NCBI GenBank assembly: GCA_947478955.1 | Contig: CANJXJ010000005.1 | Coordinates: forward strand, 1 to 47,859 | Length of the DNA: 47,859 nt | Reading direction: 5' to 3' | DNA from: Alphaproteobacteria bacterium | Lineage (GTDB): Bacteria > Pseudomonadota > Alphaproteobacteria > Paracaedibacterales > CAITNM01 | The notes under the pieces: generated by a model | What the model was told of the DNA's origin: nothing | Databases searched by the model: none | The model's input: the letters and a program-made list of their open reading frames with translations, nothing else | Made by a program: the position numbers and the translations under genes | Part shown: piece by piece, positions 4,782 through 36,000 of the stretch | How the letters are laid out: each line of letters begins with the position of its first letter | Numbering within the stretch: position 1 is the first letter of the stretch

Positions 4782-5063
4782 TGGGTCCTCCGGTCAAGCC
4801 GGAGAAAAACTGGAGAGTTGGACGCAAGGAAAATTAGAAAGAATGCCGCCGTAGTTTCCCTACGACTTGATCTTAGGGTCCATATCAATAATTTTGTGGG
4901 TCCTCCGGTCAAGCCGGAGGAAAACTAAAGAGTTGGACACGAGGAAAACTAGCAGTAGTAACCTTCCTTAGTTTCCATATGGCTTAACCATATGGTCCAG
5001 TGAGTAATGCCAATATTTTTCAATTGGATCCTCAGGTCAAGCCGGAGAAAAACTGGAGAGTTG
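4782..5063. repeat. Hairpin-module array, two units plus half a unit
   Basis: Units begin at 4782, 4897 and 5025. Each full unit has one stem-loop with loop TCAAG (stem CCTCCGG/CCGGAGG) and, 50-60 bp on, an opposite-facing stem-loop with loop CTTGA (stem CCCTACGA/TCTTAGGG in unit 1, with one mismatch; CCATATGG/CCATATGG in unit 2, loop there CTTAA). The third unit keeps only the first hairpin. With the terminator of rpsU this accounts for most of the 547-bp gap between 4609 and 5155; 4609-4781 holds nothing I can identify. Confidence 0.85.
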
Positions 5064-13650: not shown

Positions 13651-13723
13651 TGTCATACCCGCGGAGGCGGGTATCCAGTAAAATAGGAACCATGCACTGG
13701 ATTCCCGCTTTCGCGGGTATGAC
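13651..13723. repeat. REP-type inverted hairpin pair between dcd and murA
   Basis: Two hairpins facing each other: TGTCATACCCGC...GCGGGTATCCAGT and CACTGGATTCCCGC...GCGGGTATGACA, with 4-nt loops. This GTCAT-CCCGC/GCGGG-ATCCAG type of palindrome is widespread in proteobacterial intergenic regions. Related copies in this window are at 18501, 19184 (inside a gene), 22700 and perhaps 28350. Confidence 0.85.
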
Positions 13724-13787
13724 ACAACAAAAACTCAAATTCTTAATATTCATCTAACTTCTAAATCTTTTCTTGCTGTTTTTAAAA

Positions 13788-18500: not shown

Positions 18501-18569
18501 TGTCATTCCCGCGTAAGCGGAAATCCATAATGACATATTTCCCTGGATCCCCCCCGTCAAGGAGAGGAC
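18501..18569. repeat. REP-type inverted pair, degenerate
   Basis: The first half, TGTCATTCCCGCGTAAGCGG then AAATCCA (18501-18527), pairs CCGC with GCGG. The opposite half (18542-18569) begins CCTGGATCCCC and ends GGAGAGGAC, with a CGTCAAG-type loop. It is the same arrangement as at 13651-13723, lying between aspS and the end of the thiamine-linked transporter gene. Confidence 0.65.
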
Positions 18570-22699: not shown

Positions 22700-22728
22700 A
22701 CTGGATTCCCGCCTGGGCGGGAATGACA
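22700..22728. repeat. REP-type single hairpin between pntB and nagZ
   Basis: ACTGGATTCCCGCC, then TGG, then GCGGGAATGACA: one half of the inverted pair seen at 13651-13723. Its position just after the pntB stop suggests it may sit in the 3' part of the pnt transcript. Confidence 0.75.
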
Positions 22729-25786: not shown

Positions 25787-26665
25787 TTAGTACCTACCAA
25801 AAAATAGCCCCCTAAGACCATCTGCCTGAGCAGGAAAATAGTTAAATGGACCTTTATTGAAAGATAGGCCTGTACCAGCCAATATTCCTTCTATCGCTGC
25901 AATTCTTTCTGCACTAAAGCCAGAAGCATCATGAACTTGTGCAATAAAACAATTCGAAGGTTTTACTGTACCAGCTGCAAAGACACTCTTGCCCCTAAAT
26001 AATTCAAATGCCGCAAGGTAAGTTTTTACTACATATTCATCACCTAGTTCCCAGCCTATAGGTCCAAATGTAGCAGCACTTATAGAGGGGATAGACCATG
26101 TTTCTGAAACAGTGATCTCAGTCATGTCACCAAGGTTTAGACTTCTGTACACATCAGCAATGCTCTTTTGTCCAGCAAGAAAATCACCTTCTGCAGATAG
26201 AGGTGCTATAGCTCCAGGCATATACCCTGCAGGAGCGGTAGTGACTTTCTCTAGTTCTCTGCCAGACGATAAAGTTTTTATTAAAACACGTAACACGGAA
26301 GAACTAGTATATCTAGCGGCCATGATTCCCATGTTTGCACGCCATTTCCCCATATCCAAAACTCCTGAAGAATCCATTGCCCCGGTAGTTTTTTGTATAA
26401 CACCAGAAAATAGATGATTTGATATATCTCGCTCAGTAATTGTACTCATTTCGAACAATTTATCACCAACTCTGTAAGCAGCGACACATGTACCGCCATC
26501 TCTCATTTCTAATTGTACATGCACAACCGCCGCCACTGCAGGAACATCCACAGCTACTGGAACAGCCAAAGCAAGATGCGCAACACCATCCTCTAGCGCA
26601 GGAACCCCATCCATTGCAAACACTTGGCCCACAAGCATTGCCATTACTAATAGTATTTTTTTCAT
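25787..26665 (-). CDS. Secreted protein, unknown
   Basis: A 292-aa protein with a clear signal peptide (MKKILLVMAMLVGQVFA) and an Ala/Val-rich stretch just after it. The mature part holds two cysteines (residue about 60 and one near 245, in SNCFIAQV). I recognise no domain. AAGGGG lies before ATG 26665 and a strong terminator follows the stop, so this is a real single-gene transcription unit. It joins several other exported proteins of unknown role in this window (4306, 19987, 29285, 44989). Confidence 0.7.
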   Translation of the reverse strand: MKKILLVMAMLVGQVFAMDGVPALEDGVAHLALAVPVAVDVPAVAAVVHVQLEMRDGGTCVAAYRVGDKLFEMSTITERDISNHLFSGVIQKTTGAMDSSGVLDMGKWRANMGIMAARYTSSSVLRVLIKTLSSGRELEKVTTAPAGYMPGAIAPLSAEGDFLAGQKSIADVYRSLNLGDMTEITVSETWSIPSISAATFGPIGWELGDEYVVKTYLAAFELFRGKSVFAAGTVKPSNCFIAQVHDASGFSAERIAAIEGILAGTGLSFNKGPFNYFPAQADGLRGLFFGRY

Positions 26666-26801: not shown

Positions 26802-26869
26802 TGGATCCTCTGGTCAAGCCAGAGGAAAACTAGAAGGCAATTTTCCCTACGACTTGATCGTAGGGTCCA
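26802..26869. repeat. Single complete hairpin-repeat unit in the porin 3' region
   Basis: A compact 68-bp unit. Module 1 is TGGA + TCCTCTGG + TCAAG + CCAGAGGA + AAACT. Module 2, reversed, ends in CCCTACGA + CTTGA + TCGTAGGG + TCCA. Both stems are perfect. It sits 6 bp past the porin stop and before its terminator, so it should be transcribed as part of the porin 3' untranslated region. Confidence 0.88.
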
Positions 26870-29058: not shown

Positions 29059-29135
29059 TGGCGCGCCCGAGAAGAGTCGAACTCCTAACCTTCAGATCCG
29101 TAGTCTGACGCTCTATCCAATTGAGCTACGGGCGC
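29059..29135 (-). tRNA. tRNA-Arg (anticodon ACG)
   Basis: A 77-nt cloverleaf on the minus strand. Acceptor GCGCCCG pairs with CGGGCGC, and TA-GCTC follows. The anticodon stem TCAGA/TCTGA encloses CTACGGA, giving ACG, which A-to-I editing lets read CGU/CGC/CGA. T-loop segment GAGTTCGACTC. Discriminator G and encoded CCA (29059-29061). Confidence 0.96.
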
Positions 29136-29284
29136 TAATCTATAGATTTATAGGCAAAAAATTATAGTAAGGCAAGGTTTTTATTTTTTAAAAAGTCTTT
29201 CATTAACGTTTTTTTAACCCTTTCAAGATATTCTAGCCCGGTAGAAATATGTATTTTTTAACCCCCCCTATTAGCGAGGATATG

Positions 29285-30577
29285 ATGAAATTTAAAAATC
29301 TTTCACTAACTTTATTGGCAACTGTTGCCTTTGGTGCTGGAATTTCCAGCGATGTTTCAGCAGCTGCCGCTGCTCCTGTTGCGCCTGTAGCAGCCCCTGT
29401 TGCTCCTGTGGCAGCACCCGCTGCTCCTGTGGCAGCAGTTACTCTAGATTCTAAATTACTTAAACGTTCTGCTGATGAAGCCCATGAAGTTGCAGCTATT
29501 GGTGCTAAAGCAACTAGCGCATTAGATGAAAGACTTGCTGCGGCACGAGCAAAATTTGATGCATTATCCATAGTTGTGAAGGAAAAAACTGAAGAAGGCA
29601 AACAAGCAAGTATTGCGTTAGGTAACCTGCTAGATGCTGCCCGTAAGCAGGTAATTACAGTGCATGATGTAGAAAAATCTCTAACACAAGCAAGGTCAGA
29701 TCTAGAAAGTGATGAAGCATATTTCTTAGTAACCCAGCTTAACGATGCAGATCGTGCTGCTTTAACAAAGCTTTATGCTGATAGCGTGCAAATAGCTGAT
29801 GCAAAACTTAAAGCAGCTCAAAATATTGACAAAATGCAGGGAAATATTAAAAAATCCGCCGATGAACTTCTTGCAAAACAAGCAGAACTTGAGCAATTAC
29901 AAGCAGAAATTTTAGCTGCAGTAGATGCTATGAACGTGGAATACACTCCTCCACAAGCTGAAGTTAAAGGCATAGAGCTAAGCTCACAACAGGCTGCTCT
30001 TGCGGCTGCACAAGCACAGCAAGCTAAGCTTACTTCAGAAGGAGCAACATTAGAGGCCAACATCAAAAGTTCTGACGCTGCGCTTACAAAACTCTCCCAA
30101 CAAATCGATTTAACTAAAAAGTTAGGTGCCGCTGGAAAACTAAAATTGGCTCCTCTACAAGCAGATTTTAAAGCCAAAACCATAGAAAAATCTGGCCATG
30201 CACAAGCTCTTGCTGCAAGCCAACAACAATTAGGCTTAGTAACAGCTCAAATACAGCATTTAACTGACGCTATTGCTGCCTTACAAGCTGATATAGCAAC
30301 AATCCCTGCAGCAGCTCCAGGAGCAGATGTAACGGCTGGTGAAAGCCCTGTAGAAAAAGCAGCCAGAATTGCGCCTTTGAATGCAAGAATTACAAAATTA
30401 AAAGCAACTCAAGATCCTAAGGGCAAACTACAAACAGCCTTAGCAGCAATGCAAGCTAGCGCTGCTGCCTTAGATACACAAGACGCTGCTAAAAAAGAAG
30501 AGTTAGCAAACTTTAAAGCAAAAATTGTTGCAGAACGAGCAGCAGGAAAAGCACCAACTGCAACTCCAGCAGCTTAG
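29285..30577 (+). CDS. Secreted Ala-rich coiled-coil protein, unknown
   Basis: About 430 aa from ATG 29285, chosen because GAGG ends five bases before it; an ATG at 29282 and a longer frame from 29249 are less likely. A signal peptide (KFKNLSLTLLATVAFGAGISS) is followed by a Pro/Ala linker of repeated APVAPVAAP units. Then comes a long region of heptad-like Ala/Leu/Gln/Lys-rich helices (about residues 55-330 and 360-410) predicted by eye to form coiled coils. No cysteine or catalytic motif is seen. It could be a periplasmic structural or surface protein. A strong terminator follows. Codon use is even, and the reverse-strand frame over it is a shadow. Confidence 0.75.
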   Translation: MKFKNLSLTLLATVAFGAGISSDVSAAAAAPVAPVAAPVAPVAAPAAPVAAVTLDSKLLKRSADEAHEVAAIGAKATSALDERLAAARAKFDALSIVVKEKTEEGKQASIALGNLLDAARKQVITVHDVEKSLTQARSDLESDEAYFLVTQLNDADRAALTKLYADSVQIADAKLKAAQNIDKMQGNIKKSADELLAKQAELEQLQAEILAAVDAMNVEYTPPQAEVKGIELSSQQAALAAAQAQQAKLTSEGATLEANIKSSDAALTKLSQQIDLTKKLGAAGKLKLAPLQADFKAKTIEKSGHAQALAASQQQLGLVTAQIQHLTDAIAALQADIATIPAAAPGADVTAGESPVEKAARIAPLNARITKLKATQDPKGKLQTALAAMQASAAALDTQDAAKKEELANFKAKIVAERAAGKAPTATPAA

Positions 30578-30589
30578 GCCGTTACCATC

Positions 30590-30678
30590 GATTAACAAGG
30601 CTTATCAGTTGTTGTTAATCTAACTAGTCAAGCGTCAGAGTAGATGAATCACCTCATCACTCTGGCGCTTTTCTTTTT
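30590..30678 (+). terminator. Tandem hairpins ending in an intrinsic terminator
   Basis: A first hairpin pairs GATTAACAA with TTGTTAATC (about 30592-30621). A second, stronger hairpin pairs AGCGTCAGAGT with ACTCTGGCGCT (30631-30669, one mismatch) and ends in TTTCTTTTT. It terminates the coiled-coil gene. Confidence 0.88.
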
Positions 30679-30734
30679 AGGGCCATTGTAGGTAATGCAG
30701 CCTGCATGTTTCATCCTTTAAGTCTTGGTATTTG

Positions 30735-31195
30735 TGGATCCTCTGGTCAAGCCAGAGGAAAACTGGAGAATTAAAATTGGTAAAAGTTAGAAATAGTAAC
30801 CTTCTTTAGTTTCCATATGGCTTGACCATATGGTCCAGTAAGTAATATCAATATTTTTCAATTGGATCCTCCGGTCAAGCCGGAGGAAAACTGGAGAGGG
30901 GAACTCGAGGAAAGTTAGAAATAGTAATCTTCTTTAGTTTCCGTATGGCTTGACCATATGGTCCAGTGAGTAATATCAATATTTTTCAATTGGATCCTGG
31001 GATCAAGCCGGAGGAAAACTAGAGAATTAAAATTGGGAAAAGTTAGAAATAGTAACCTTCTTTAGTTTCCATATGGCTTGACCATATGGTCCAGTGTGTA
31101 ATGTCAATATTTTTCAATTGGATCCTCCGGTCAAGCCAGAGGAAAACTAGAGAGAGGCACTCCGCAGTCTCCCTACGACTTGATCGTAGGGTCCA
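30735..31195. repeat. Largest hairpin-module array, period exactly 128 bp
   Basis: Units begin at 30735, 30863, 30991 and 31119, so the period is 128 bp three times. Units 1-3 pair a TCAAG-loop hairpin (stems CCTCTGG or CCTCCGG type; unit 3 has a mispaired left arm, CCTGGGA) with a CTTGA-loop hairpin of stem CCATATGG. The shorter unit 4 ends with the CCCTACGA/TCGTAGGG hairpin at 31195. Spacers between modules are also conserved. With the terminator it fills most of the 796-bp gap. 31196-31373 holds the leader of the next gene, and I see no recognised element in it. Confidence 0.9.
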
Positions 31196-31373
31196 CAATA
31201 TACCCCCCACCCAGAGTTATGTAAAAATTCTTGTCATCTACGTAAATCTTTCTAGAAAAATACCGAACGATTGATTTTAGTAAGATCTGGGTGCTAGGCT
31301 TAACCCGAAACTGCGCTCCCTCAACACCTGGAGCAACTTAACCCACACATTTTTTAAAGAAGGATGATAAAAA

Positions 31374-32789
31374 TTGAACAAAAAATCACCCCAGCGTTTT
31401 TTGATTATTGGCTATGGCACCATTGGAAAAGCCACCCTACCCGTTCTGATAAAAGAATTTAAATTGAGTGCTGAACAGATTCAAATTATTTCAGCGGATG
31501 CTACCCATACTGAGCTAACTCAAAAAATGGGTATACACATAACCCAGCTAGCATTGGATCAAACAAACTACCAAGAAGCGATTACGCCCAGATTAGCTGC
31601 GGGTGATATTTTATTAAATTTAGCCGTCAATGTAAGTTCATTAGACCTAATCCGTCTTTGCCAGTCGGTAGGAGCGTTATATATCGATACGTGCATTGAA
31701 CCCTGGGAGGGCCATTACACGAATGAAACCTTGAGCATTTCAGAACGATCAAATTATGCTTTGCGTGAACAAGCTATTGCCCTTAAGGCTGAGTATCCAA
31801 ACGGAACAACGGCAGTGCTAGCGCATGGCGCTAACCCCGGTTTGGTTTCTCATTTTATTAAACAAGCCCTTCTGGACTTGTCACAAAATAGCTTACCTCA
31901 AGATACTGGCGTTTCTACTGAAGTTCCTGCCACTAAGCAAGCATGGGCTGAACTTGCTCAGAGGCTTTGTATAAAATCAATCCACATTGCTGAGTTTGAT
32001 TGGCAAAAAACCAAAGTAAAACGCCAACCTGGGGATTTTTTTTCCACCTGGTCAGCGGAAGGATTCATTAGTGAAGGGTTACAACCCGCTGAATTAGGTT
32101 GGGGTTCCCATGAAAAGCAATTGCCAACGGACGGTAAACAGCACGAATACGGCTGCAAGTCATCAATCTATATTAATAAGCCAGGGTTCTCAACGCGCAT
32201 CCGCACTTGGACACCTATGGCAGGACCTTTTCAAGCCTATTTGGTAACCCACAATGAATCTATATCCATTGCTGACTACTTAACAATAAAATCAAATGAG
32301 CAAGTCACGTATCGGCCAACCGTGTTGTACGCTTATCACCCAAGCAGTGAGGCGGTGTTGTCCGTTCACGAAATGGAGGGTAGAAATTTTTCCATGCCAA
32401 CCAACAAAAGAGTTTTGGTTGATGAAGTTGAAGGTATTGATGAATTGGGCGTGCTGCTGATGGGCCATAATCAGGTTACTTATTGGTATGGTTCTTACCT
32501 TTCAACCGAAGAAGCTAAAACAATTGCGCCTTATAACAATGCGACCAGCTGCCAGGTCGTGGCAGGTCTTATTGGGGCAATCCATTGGGCCATTGATAAT
32601 CCTAATGCAGGTATTGTCGAAGCAGAAGATTTAGACTTTGATTATGTACTGGAAAAAGCAAAACCCTATATGGGGCCAGTTGATGGATTCTATTCAAAAT
32701 GGACACCAATTGCGAACCGGTCTCAATTATTTGAGGAAGATGTGGATTCTGCTTGCCCATGGCAATTTAAGAATTTTCGGGTGGCATAA
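31374..32789 (+). CDS. hss: Homospermidine synthase
   Basis: A 471-aa protein of the bacterial homospermidine synthase family (saccharopine-dehydrogenase-like fold), which uses NAD+ to make homospermidine from putrescine or from spermidine plus putrescine. The Rossmann motif is FLIIGYGTIGKATLPVL (9-25). Other family blocks are YIDTCIEPWEGHY, VLAHGANPGLVSHFIKQAL and NNATSCQVVAGLIGAIHWA. The start is TTG 31374, with AAGAAGGA about nine bases upstream; an ATG at 31364 is out of frame. It is flanked on both sides by hairpin-repeat loci and converges on nrdJ. Confidence 0.92.
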   Translation: MNKKSPQRFLIIGYGTIGKATLPVLIKEFKLSAEQIQIISADATHTELTQKMGIHITQLALDQTNYQEAITPRLAAGDILLNLAVNVSSLDLIRLCQSVGALYIDTCIEPWEGHYTNETLSISERSNYALREQAIALKAEYPNGTTAVLAHGANPGLVSHFIKQALLDLSQNSLPQDTGVSTEVPATKQAWAELAQRLCIKSIHIAEFDWQKTKVKRQPGDFFSTWSAEGFISEGLQPAELGWGSHEKQLPTDGKQHEYGCKSSIYINKPGFSTRIRTWTPMAGPFQAYLVTHNESISIADYLTIKSNEQVTYRPTVLYAYHPSSEAVLSVHEMEGRNFSMPTNKRVLVDEVEGIDELGVLLMGHNQVTYWYGSYLSTEEAKTIAPYNNATSCQVVAGLIGAIHWAIDNPNAGIVEAEDLDFDYVLEKAKPYMGPVDGFYSKWTPIANRSQLFEEDVDSACPWQFKNFRVA

Positions 32790-32799
32790 AACATAGATA

Positions 32800-33016
32800 T
32801 GGACCCTACAATCAAGCGTTACCCCGTTGAAAAACGTGGGTCGTAGGGAGACTAGAAGAATTATCAGTTTTCCTCCGGCTTGACCGGAGGATCCACTTGA
32901 CCCCAGGATCCAATTGAAAAATATTGATATTACTCACTGGACCATATGGTCAAGCCATATGGAAACTAAAGAAGATTACTACTTCTAGTTTTCCTCTGGT
33001 TTAACCAGAGGATCCA
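32800..33016. repeat. Rearranged hairpin-module array between convergent hss and nrdJ
   Basis: The array is in the opposite orientation to the others. It contains a CCCTAC.A hairpin interrupted by about 24 extra bases next to the loop, a CCTCCGG/CCGGAGG hairpin, a half module reading ACTTGACCCCAGGATCC, a perfect CCATATGG-TCAAG-CCATATGG hairpin and a CCTCTGG/CCAGAGG hairpin with loop TTTAA. No other terminator is visible between these convergent genes, so these hairpins may stop transcription. Confidence 0.87.
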
Positions 33017-33079
33017 CCAATATCAAAGCTTCGCAAGTGAAACTTGCACCCTCCATTGATAAGTCTTTCTATAACCTTC

Positions 33080-36000
33080 TTATGAACAGCCGCTCGTCGA
33101 ACCACAGGTTACGCATTTCAGGCATGTACCATTACGCACCATGGTAAAGTTACCGCATTCTCCACAAGAATCGCCTTCATAGCCCTGCAGTTTTGCCTGC
33201 ATAGACTTTTCAGTTTTGCGCTTTGTCGATGATGTAGTATACGACACAACATTTGACGTGCCATAGGTGCCTGTAGCTTTTGCTTCTTCGTAACCAGTTT
33301 GCATTGAAACAGTTTCATCAGAAATACTAACGGTTGTTTCAACAACTAATGGCTCATGAGTTTCATCTTGGCGCCCCACCATATAATCGCTTCGATCACC
33401 GATCGTATCAGGTGTTAGGTCACTTGGCTGAACGTGCGCAAGGTCATGGCGCCCTAGGTAATTAATCGCCAAATCACGGAAGATATAATCCAAAATTGAA
33501 GTAGCAATTTTTACCCAGTCATTTCCTTCAACCATACCAGATGGTTCAAAACGAGTGAAAGTAAAGGCTTCCACATATTCTTCTAAGGGAACGCCATACT
33601 GCAAACCAATAGATATAGCCATGGCGAAGTTATGCATCAATGAACGGAACGATGCCCCTTCTTTATGCATATCAATGAAAATTTCACCGAGCTTTCCATC
33701 TATATATTCACCAGTGCGAATATAAATTTTATGGCCACCCACCACCGCTTTTTGAGTATATCCACCCCGGCGATTTGGTAGTTTTTGACGTTTTGATTCG
33801 TAAATGACGCGTTCGATAATGCGCTCAACAATCTTTTCCGCTACCACTTGAGCTTTTTGAGTTTGAGGCATTTGTGCTATTTCTTCAGCCTCGTCCTCAT
33901 CAATATTCAAACTACTAAGAGGTTGAGAAAGCTTTGACCCATCCCTATATAAAGCATTTGCTTTTAAGCATAAACGCCAAGATTTCATGTAGGCCGATTG
34001 GCAATCTTCAACGGTAGCTTGGGATGGCATGTTTACGGTTTTAGAAATTGCACCGCTGATAAACGGTTGAACCGCTGCCATCATTTCAATATGGCTATCA
34101 AATGAGAGGTAACGCTTACCAATACGTCCACAAGGGTTTGCACAATCAAACACCGGCAGATGTTCAATTTTCAAATGTGGCGCACCTTCTAGAGTCATCA
34201 ATCCGCAACAGTAATTATTGGCGGCTTCGATGTCTTGTTTAGAAAAACCAAGGTGAGTAAGCATATCAAAACTAGGATCACATAGCTGATCATCTGTTAG
34301 ATTGAGAGTGTTTTTGCAAAAGCTTTCCCCCAACGTGTATTTGTTAAACACAAACTTAATATCAAACGCTGCTTTTAATACATTTGAAATGGCGGTTAAT
34401 TCTTTATCTGTAAAACCTTTGGCTTTTAACGTTTCATGGTTGATGGCTGGAGCTTTTTCAAGGGATGCATATCCCACAGCGTAGTTAGCAATATCTTGCA
34501 TTTGCTCAGGCGTGTATCCCAAAATTTTCAACGCTGATGGCACCATTTGGTTGATAATTTTAAAGTACCCACCACCAGCAAGTTTTTTAAATTTTACCAA
34601 CGCAAAATCAGGCTCTACACCAGTTGTGTCACAATCCATGACCAAACCAATAGTACCGGTTGGAGCAATACAGGTAGTTTGCGCGTTACGGTAACCAAAT
34701 TGTTCACCATGGGATACAGCTTCATCCCATGCTTGGCAAGCGGCCTCAATTAATCCAGGAACAGTGCAATCGCTTGCGCGAAGTGGAACTGGTACAATTG
34801 ACAGTCCTTCATAACTTTGAGTTTCCCCATAAGCTGCGCGGCGATGGTTACGCATGACGCGAATCATGGCATCTTTATTCTTGGCGTATCCTGGGAACGC
34901 ACCAAGTTCTTTGGCCATAAGGGCAGAGGTTCGGTAACTCACACCGGTTAAAATGGCAGCTAAAGCACCACCGATGCAACGACCTTCTGGGCTGTCATAA
35001 GCAATACCCATGGCCATTAATAATCCACCTAAGTTGCCATACCCTAAACCAAGGGTCCGGAAATCATAAGATAATTGGGCAATTGAGCGAGATGGGAACT
35101 GAGCCATAAGCACAGAAATTTCTAAAACAACTGTCCAAAGAGTAATCGCATGTTCAAATGCTGGTATATCAAACTGACCATTCTTATATAATGTCACAAG
35201 GTTGATAGAAGCCAGGTTGCAGGCTGTATCATCTAAAAACATATATTCAGAACATGGGTTAGACGCATTGATTCGCCCGCTATTTGGGCATGTATGCCAT
35301 TCATTAATAGTTGTATCAAATTGAATGCCCGGATCAGCACAAGCCCATGCAGCAAAACCAACCTTATCCCACAATTCTTTTGCAGGAAGCTTTTGAACAG
35401 CAGCACCATCAGTACGAGACGTTAAAGCCCATTCTTTGTTTTCCAAAACACTTTCTAAAAAGGTGTTCGTAACCCGCACGGTATTGTTTGAGTTTTGCCC
35501 TGAAACGGTTCCATAAGCCTCGCTATCCCAATCGGTATTATAGGTTGGGAAGGGGAAATTTGTGTGACCAAGCTCTGCCATGTTAATGGCACGCTTAATA
35601 TAATTTTCAGGAACAAAGGCTGTACGAGCCGCACGAATGGTCGCTTTTAAACCAGGATTGGTTTTAGGATCAAAACGATCAGCTTCTTTTAGATCATTAT
35701 TAATGCAGGCTGAAATGATTTCGTTTAAGTGGAATTGATTCAATTTCGACCCAGTCACCAAGGCCGCAACTTTTTGTTCTTCAAGAACTTTCCAATCAAT
35801 AAAATTAATCACATCCGGGTGGTCAATATCGAGCACTACCATTTTAGCAGCACGCCTGGTAGTTCCTCCGGACTTAATAGCGCCGGCAGAGCGGTCGCCA
35901 ATACGTAAGAAGCTCATTAAGCCTGAAGAGACCCCTCCTCCAGATAATTTCTCTCCAGCGCCTCGTAAATTTGAAAAGTTTGAACCAGTACCCGAGCCGT

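Follow-up and report, generated by a model that had tools for sequence, protein, structure and literature searches.

AGTT-tagged hairpin repeats in an alphaproteobacterial genome, REP-type elements probably derived from hairpin-bracketed GIY-YIG nuclease genes

The hairpin modules found between the genes of this alphaproteobacterium are best understood as REP-type mobile repeats, probably non-autonomous derivatives of an element in which two hairpins bracket the gene for a fold-recognizing GIY-YIG nuclease (probability about 0.7). Judged by sequence comparison, they appear to be an AGTT-tagged offshoot of the alphaproteobacterial CGTC-tagged REP superfamily; the tag is new and the design was already known.

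The window, i.e. the whole stretch of 47,859 nt that was analysed, is a complete contig (C5) of a genome of 1.64 Mb in 69 contigs, 96.6% complete, referred to here as G000. A first, sequence-only reading of the window described about two dozen copies of one design, TGGA-N8-TCAAG-N8-AAACT, at five intergenic loci, with a constant loop, constant flanks and compensating arms. The copy number is borne out: with up to two mismatches the window contains 23 matches, against 0.70 expected and a maximum of 4 in 100 shuffles. All 23 copies are intergenic and lie at exactly five loci, in the spacers originally named, the fourth cluster starting at 32866 rather than at 32800 (Table 1). In the whole of G000, with no stem pairing required, there are 108 exact matches and 46 with one mismatch (154 in total), 132 of which form seven or eight Watson-Crick pairs, whereas the reversed pattern, used as a control, gives a single match with at most one mismatch, without a paired stem. 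A count requiring stem pairing yields about 181 hairpin copies in 70 clusters. TCAAG is by far the commonest loop among the perfect 8-bp hairpins of the genome (99, as against 15 for the runner-up), and an Rfam search gave no match at the repeats.

Covariation was assessed on 71 distinct module sequences from G000 and its relatives. Double-sided changes are present at all eight stem pairs. In the true register, 90.0% of stem cells pair, compared with a mean of 71.6% after shuffling and 32–49% with slid partners; both sides are changed in 137 cells, versus 46.6 after shuffling, and the covariation score is 0.559 versus 0.231, a level reached by none of 500 shuffles, these figures being inflated by the common descent of the copies, although the slid controls retain this descent and yet fail. 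No slid register matches the true one, nor does any shuffle on the main measures. The genome-wide collection and the covariation analysis uphold the description, given in the first reading, of constant loop and flanks with compensating arms, and the folded form of the module is what is conserved.

Table 1. Hairpin repeats in the window (positions from the first nucleotide; strand in brackets or after the position).
Feature	Location	Hairpins	Remarks
Five AGTT hairpins	4782..5054	4782-4811(+), 4853-4882(-), 4897-4926(+), 4970-4999(-), 5025-5054(+)	Pattern match
TGTC-tagged CGTC-1 type dimer, tags outside	13651..13724	13651-13677+, 13698-13724-	
TGTC-tagged CGTC-1 type hairpin	18501..18527	+	About 97-bp insertion missing in G001, G002, G003
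Solo TGTC-tagged CGTC-1 type hairpin	22702..22728	-	Net excess of 32 bp over five relatives
Single heterotypic dimer, tags inside	26802..26869	26802-26831(+), stem TCCTCTGG; 26840-26869(-), stem CCCTACGA	
Array of eight alternating hairpins	30735..31195	30735+, 30808-, 30863+, 30936-, 30991+, 31064-, 31119+, 31166-	
Three hairpins	32866..33016	32866(-), 32938(+), 32987(-)	Between convergent genes
Five divergent copies	47481..47801	47481(+), 47549(-), 47660(-), 47704(+), 47772(-)	Downstream of LolD-like gene

The modules come in opposite-facing pairs with usually different stems, as had been seen in the window: 101 of the 111 neighbours in G000 face in opposite directions, and in 90 of 99 opposite-facing neighbours the outermost stem pair alternates, TGGAT..A in one neighbour and TGGAC..G in the other. 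This T-A/C-G alternation, a rule absent from the sequence-only reading, spans many inner stem types. Neighbouring AGTT modules in G000 have their tags inside more often than outside (59 vs 42), as do isolated pairs (18 vs 9). The main window array consists of a 128-bp unit in tandem repetition. The density of AGTT hairpins is uneven, reaching 0.9 per kb on contig C52 and 0.8 on C25 and falling to zero on several contigs of more than 25 kb; C40 is also on the dense side, and C2, C3, C4, C13, C14, C18 and C24 are on the sparse side.

A covarying stem is compatible with elements acting at the RNA level, through mRNA 3'-end protection, termination, translation control or the kissing of the loops of paired modules, and so is the position of the clusters, which are enriched in convergent spacers (16/59, vs 100/678 of spacers) and depleted in divergent ones (7/59 vs 178/678). 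Such a role is nevertheless very unlikely to account for the repeats, which are inserted sequences, absent at orthologous sites, and whose copy number drops from about 181 to 0 within a single genus. Neither strand has a T-run after the hairpin, which rules out intrinsic terminators. The suggestion that the TCAAG and CTTGA loops of a pair might kiss has found nothing to support it, because opposite orientation alone makes the two loops complementary. Secondary RNA roles after insertion are possible.

CGTC-tagged REPs have a CGTC-type tag, a stem of 8–9 bp, a loop of 4–5 nt and a CCA tail (Di Nocera et al., 2013; PMC3733652). They occur mainly in alphaproteobacteria, frequently as heterodimers, are divided into classes CGTC-1 to CGTC-4, include Neisseria dRS3 and Rickettsia RPE-4/RPE-6, and have no dedicated transposase according to the paper that defined them (PMC3733652). 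Read on the opposite strand, the module is AGTT-T-N8-CTTGA-N8-T-CCA, and its 8-bp stem, CTTGA loop and TCCA tail fall within the definition of these repeats. The two groups have in common the stem of 8–9 bp, the 4–5 nt loop, the unpaired tag at one end and the CCA tail, as well as heterodimers, a preference for co-directional or convergent spacers, which the AGTT modules also display, and the lack of a Y1 transposase. The claim that no described family has this design thus has to be abandoned, the tag being what differs: CGTC, TGTC or CCTC in CGTC REPs, but AGTT in the modules of G000 (on the tag strand, the 181 copies include 143 with AGTTT, 11 with AATTT, 10 with AGTCT and one with CGTCG). 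In addition, CGTC REPs have A-T pairs beside the tag, where the AGTT modules have T opposite T, followed by an A-T or G-C pair, and CGTC REP dimers mostly have their tags outside (HH), whereas tags-inside dimers and clusters are common in the AGTT family.

The parent type of tag is present alongside. G000 also has about 52 TGTC-tagged CGTC-1 hairpins, whose tag is within the CGTC definition; 12 of their 13 dimers are heterotypic, the difference lying at the third stem pair. Hairpins of the form TGGAY..TCAAG..RTGAC were found in 12 of 142 sampled genomes of the class, some with stems identical to those of G000 (TCCTCCGG, TCCTCTGG). Both tags occur in G023, a genome of the same order, at about 28 copies for TGACG and about 20 for AAACT/AGACT; each of its nine dimers is uniform in tag, and eight are T/C heterotypic. 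The hairpin has therefore outlasted a change of tag, and within one genome the two tag types behave like distinct families. A literature search of limited coverage returned nothing relevant on REPs in Holosporales or on the hairpin sequence.

When a stem-specific pattern was searched in 84,980 species genomes, every match was an alphaproteobacterial metagenome-assembled genome, the named ones being Finniella, Odyssella or Paracaedibacteraceae. 'Candidatus Finniella' (Holosporales) are symbionts of protists. The main window array recurs in a relative, G003 (L073/L190), and the L073 contig is named Ca. Finniella inopinata. G000 is therefore probably Finniella-like. Five insertions were compared with relatives (a dimer on C52, and the window copies at 26802, 13651, 18501 and 22702). 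Six relatives lack the C52 dimer, and in four of them the flanking genes are almost adjacent; site 26802 is empty in six (G001, G002, G003, G005, G008 and G009); the 13651 dimer lies within an insertion of about 166 bp, and its flanking genes almost abut in seven relatives; the 22702 element is missing in at least five. These empty sites indicate that the repeats insert. No target duplication was seen, and some inserts bring extra flanking sequence, so that the unit ends are not exact. The 32866 cluster lies downstream of a gene for a B12-dependent ribonucleotide reductase, and no alignable sequence was found downstream of the ribonucleotide reductase genes of the relatives.

An alternative is that the modules are classic REP/BIME elements, mobilized by a RAYT or an IS200-type Y1 HUH transposase that acts on hairpins in single-stranded DNA; the sequence-only reading had named RAYT-handled REP/BIME elements as the nearest analogue. 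GTAG REPs with RAYT (REPtrons, REPINs and the BIMEs of E. coli; PMC3733652, PMC8266576) are likewise tagged hairpins in opposite-facing pairs, with two alternating hairpin types and an enzyme gene that lies between repeats of its own. Despite this REP-like overall anatomy, and the presence of IS200-length Y1 genes in some relatives, a Y1 mover is highly improbable. The tag is not GTAG, and no PF01797 match was found in G000, 96.6% complete, although the E. coli control was positive. In relative G009, Y1 genes occur but AGTT hairpins do not, whereas G000, G001 and G023 have the hairpins and no Y1 gene, and a Y1 match is lacking in 10 of the 12 genomes that carry TGAC-tagged copies. The PF01797 searches of G000, the order and the 12 class genomes thus yielded no candidate mover, and Y1 genes do not track copy number across the order. 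Unlike the gene flanked by GTAG REPs, the gene bracketed in G000 encodes a GIY-YIG nuclease, which is a better candidate than RAYT as the partner of the AGTT hairpins. From the first interpretation, the conserved fold, the heterotypic opposite-facing pairs and the REP-type plan that makes REP/BIME elements the nearest kind can be retained; the novelty of the design, RAYT and the kissing loops cannot.

Among the genes near dense hairpin clusters in G000 are two small GIY-YIG genes, the two that a tblastn search of the genome detects, and each is enclosed by a pair of hairpins whose tags lie outside. Only three of the 1424 ORFs of the genome are bracketed in this way, two of them being the GIY-YIG genes, which leaves one of the 1422 others. 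The gene on C25 (15306-15593) is flanked by TGTC hairpins, the first ending a few bases 5' of the start codon and the second lying 1 base past the stop codon. The gene on C6 (domain at 26012-26284, minus strand) is flanked by AGTT-type hairpins. Both proteins consist of a single domain (PF01541, E=6.8e-13 and 4e-18), with intact catalytic residues (Y6, Y17, R27, H31, E64 and N83). In G003, the orthologue of the AGTT-linked gene (74% identity) has an AGTT-type bracket with one degenerate hairpin, and a second GIY-YIG gene is bracketed by CGTC hairpins with another stem; the AGTT-linked proteins of the two species form their own clade (ultrafast bootstrap 94). The homologues in G009 (L322, C6) and G006 (L323, C128) have CGTCG-like and ACGT(C)-like brackets, respectively, which suggests that the tag may have changed repeatedly within one genus; neither genome contains an AAACT-tagged copy. 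Every one of the six GIY-YIG genes detected in the genus has a tags-outside pair of hairpins around it. A search of solved structures gave only a weak match, to the UPF0213 protein 1ZG2; matches to WD-repeat proteins appear to be due to chance.

A Neisseria homologue with 48% identity to the C6 protein lies among dRS3-like hairpins. Ssn (site-specific single-stranded nuclease), a Neisseria GIY-YIG enzyme of this family, reportedly cleaves repeats carried on single-stranded DNA and has an effect on transformation. In Neisseria as in G000, a small GIY-YIG protein is linked to abundant hairpin repeats, and the G000 proteins resemble Ssn in their intact single GIY-YIG domain and in being bracketed by the abundant hairpin family of the genome. 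The G000 system differs from that of Ssn in its tag, in having two paralogues with different tags in one genome and in the evidence of mobile units. Nothing relevant on GIY-YIG with dRS3 or with Neisseria single-stranded DNA repeats was found in a literature search of limited coverage, and a precedent in general form is possible.

Homologues of the GIY-YIG protein were detected in 35 records of a plasmid collection, and one fixed bracket criterion was applied to 18 loci, each from a different organism or strain. Tags-outside brackets were found at 10 of the 18 genes if a doubtful case (Sinorhizobium C101) is included, and nine are clear (Aeromonas, Rhizobium CIAT894, Azospirillum, Neorhizobium, two Shinella, S. 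meliloti, Sphingobium and Novosphingobium), whereas none of 88 other annotated CDS in two 50-kb stretches of the same replicons is bracketed. The stems vary between hosts, and the left and right hairpins of each bracket match. Eight of the 18 genes have no clear bracket under this criterion; the Neisseria locus fails it with several such hairpins around the gene. In the Azospirillum lipoferum plasmid AZO_p3 (L307), a GIY-YIG unit with CGTC hairpins lies between sufB and sufC, inside the suf operon; related Azospirillum plasmids do not have it. S. meliloti Ak57 (L312) carries, beside a full copy, a unit shortened by internal deletion, in which the two terminal hairpins and the gene's 3' end survive. 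Sinorhizobium sp. K101 (L329) has a single hairpin where Ak57 has the full and the deleted units, which raises the possibility that full elements may enter at existing hairpins, in a homing-like manner. In Sphingomonas paeninsulae (L319), a GIY-YIG homologue lies between rnc and era in a lepB-rnc-era row, without recognizable hairpins, and is possibly an old, decayed unit.

Remnants of the gene are also found in G000 itself: hairpins at C6:26492-26558 and 33059-33134 retain the last 35–42 bases of the C6-type gene, with 87–88% identity, and one of them has a degenerate left hairpin nearby, as expected of internal-deletion copies. Together with the deleted copy of S. meliloti and the empty sites in Azospirillum, these remnants lend good support to the view that bare dimers are deletion derivatives of a GIY-YIG element. 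The full element would comprise a left hairpin (tag-hairpin-CCA), the gene for a GIY-YIG nuclease of about 95 amino acids and a right hairpin (TGG-hairpin-tag). The nuclease would recognize the folded single-stranded hairpin and its tag and cut there, and repair or recombination would then place copies of the element, and of its shortened derivatives, at new sites. The inserted repeats would lie mostly downstream of genes, with arrays growing in places by tandem duplication. A single-strand-specific, fold-reading nuclease would account for the conservation of fold and tag in the face of compensated stem drift, and for the coexistence in one genome of two tag families and two nuclease paralogues.

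Several observations count against the GIY-YIG element. The unit ends are inexact and target duplications are absent; tags-inside pairs are in excess among all neighbours and isolated pairs, the GIY-YIG genes being in tags-outside pairs; and part of the plasmid-collection genes are unbracketed. Known GIY-YIG enzymes nick or break DNA and are not known to join strands, so their activity does not account for the copying step. A wider proposal, held with slightly less than even confidence, is that hairpin-bracketed GIY-YIG genes could be the long-missing autonomous partners of the entire CGTC-type REP superfamily. They would be minimal elements using a GIY-YIG single-strand nuclease rather than an HUH transposase, with tag and enzyme coevolving (CGTC, TGTC, AGTT and ACGT-like), and ordinary REP dimers would be internal-deletion copies. 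CGTC REPs are abundant in alphaproteobacteria and also present in Neisseria and Rickettsia, with no dedicated transposase in the defining paper (PMC3733652). A tag-switched family beside the parent tag, with GIY-YIG genes of matching tags, makes the question of their mover directly testable.

The hairpins and the nuclease might instead act mainly on incoming single-stranded DNA, as signals shaping transformation or recombination, rather than as a mobile element. The main array lies within a recently exchanged tract, and the effects reported for Neisseria Ssn on single-stranded repeats and transformation point the same way; however, a single exchanged tract is an anecdote, and the sites empty in relatives, the leftover gene ends and the copies with internal deletions indicate an element that moves itself. 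A role in exchange alone is thus unlikely, and both roles can hold together. The tract covers about 2.5 kb (window ~29100-31627) and has 94–99% identity to contig C16 of G003 (L190), as against ~70–80% in its surroundings, a difference that indicates recent exchange between G000 and G003. Besides the main array, it contains a gene for a 442-aa protein without a Pfam match and the first part of a saccharopine-dehydrogenase-like gene, its right end being abrupt and inside a gene.

Some called genes of G000 (C46:7120-8028, C10:26466-27311 and C15:3931-4797) run through a hairpin in frame close to their starts. Rickettsia RPE-1 and other long palindromic elements are likewise palindromic and readable through in frame; they are longer than the AGTT modules and unrelated to them in sequence. 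The resulting peptides in G000, such as SLRLDRRV and GSSGQARGKL, indicate that the starts of these genes may be mis-called.
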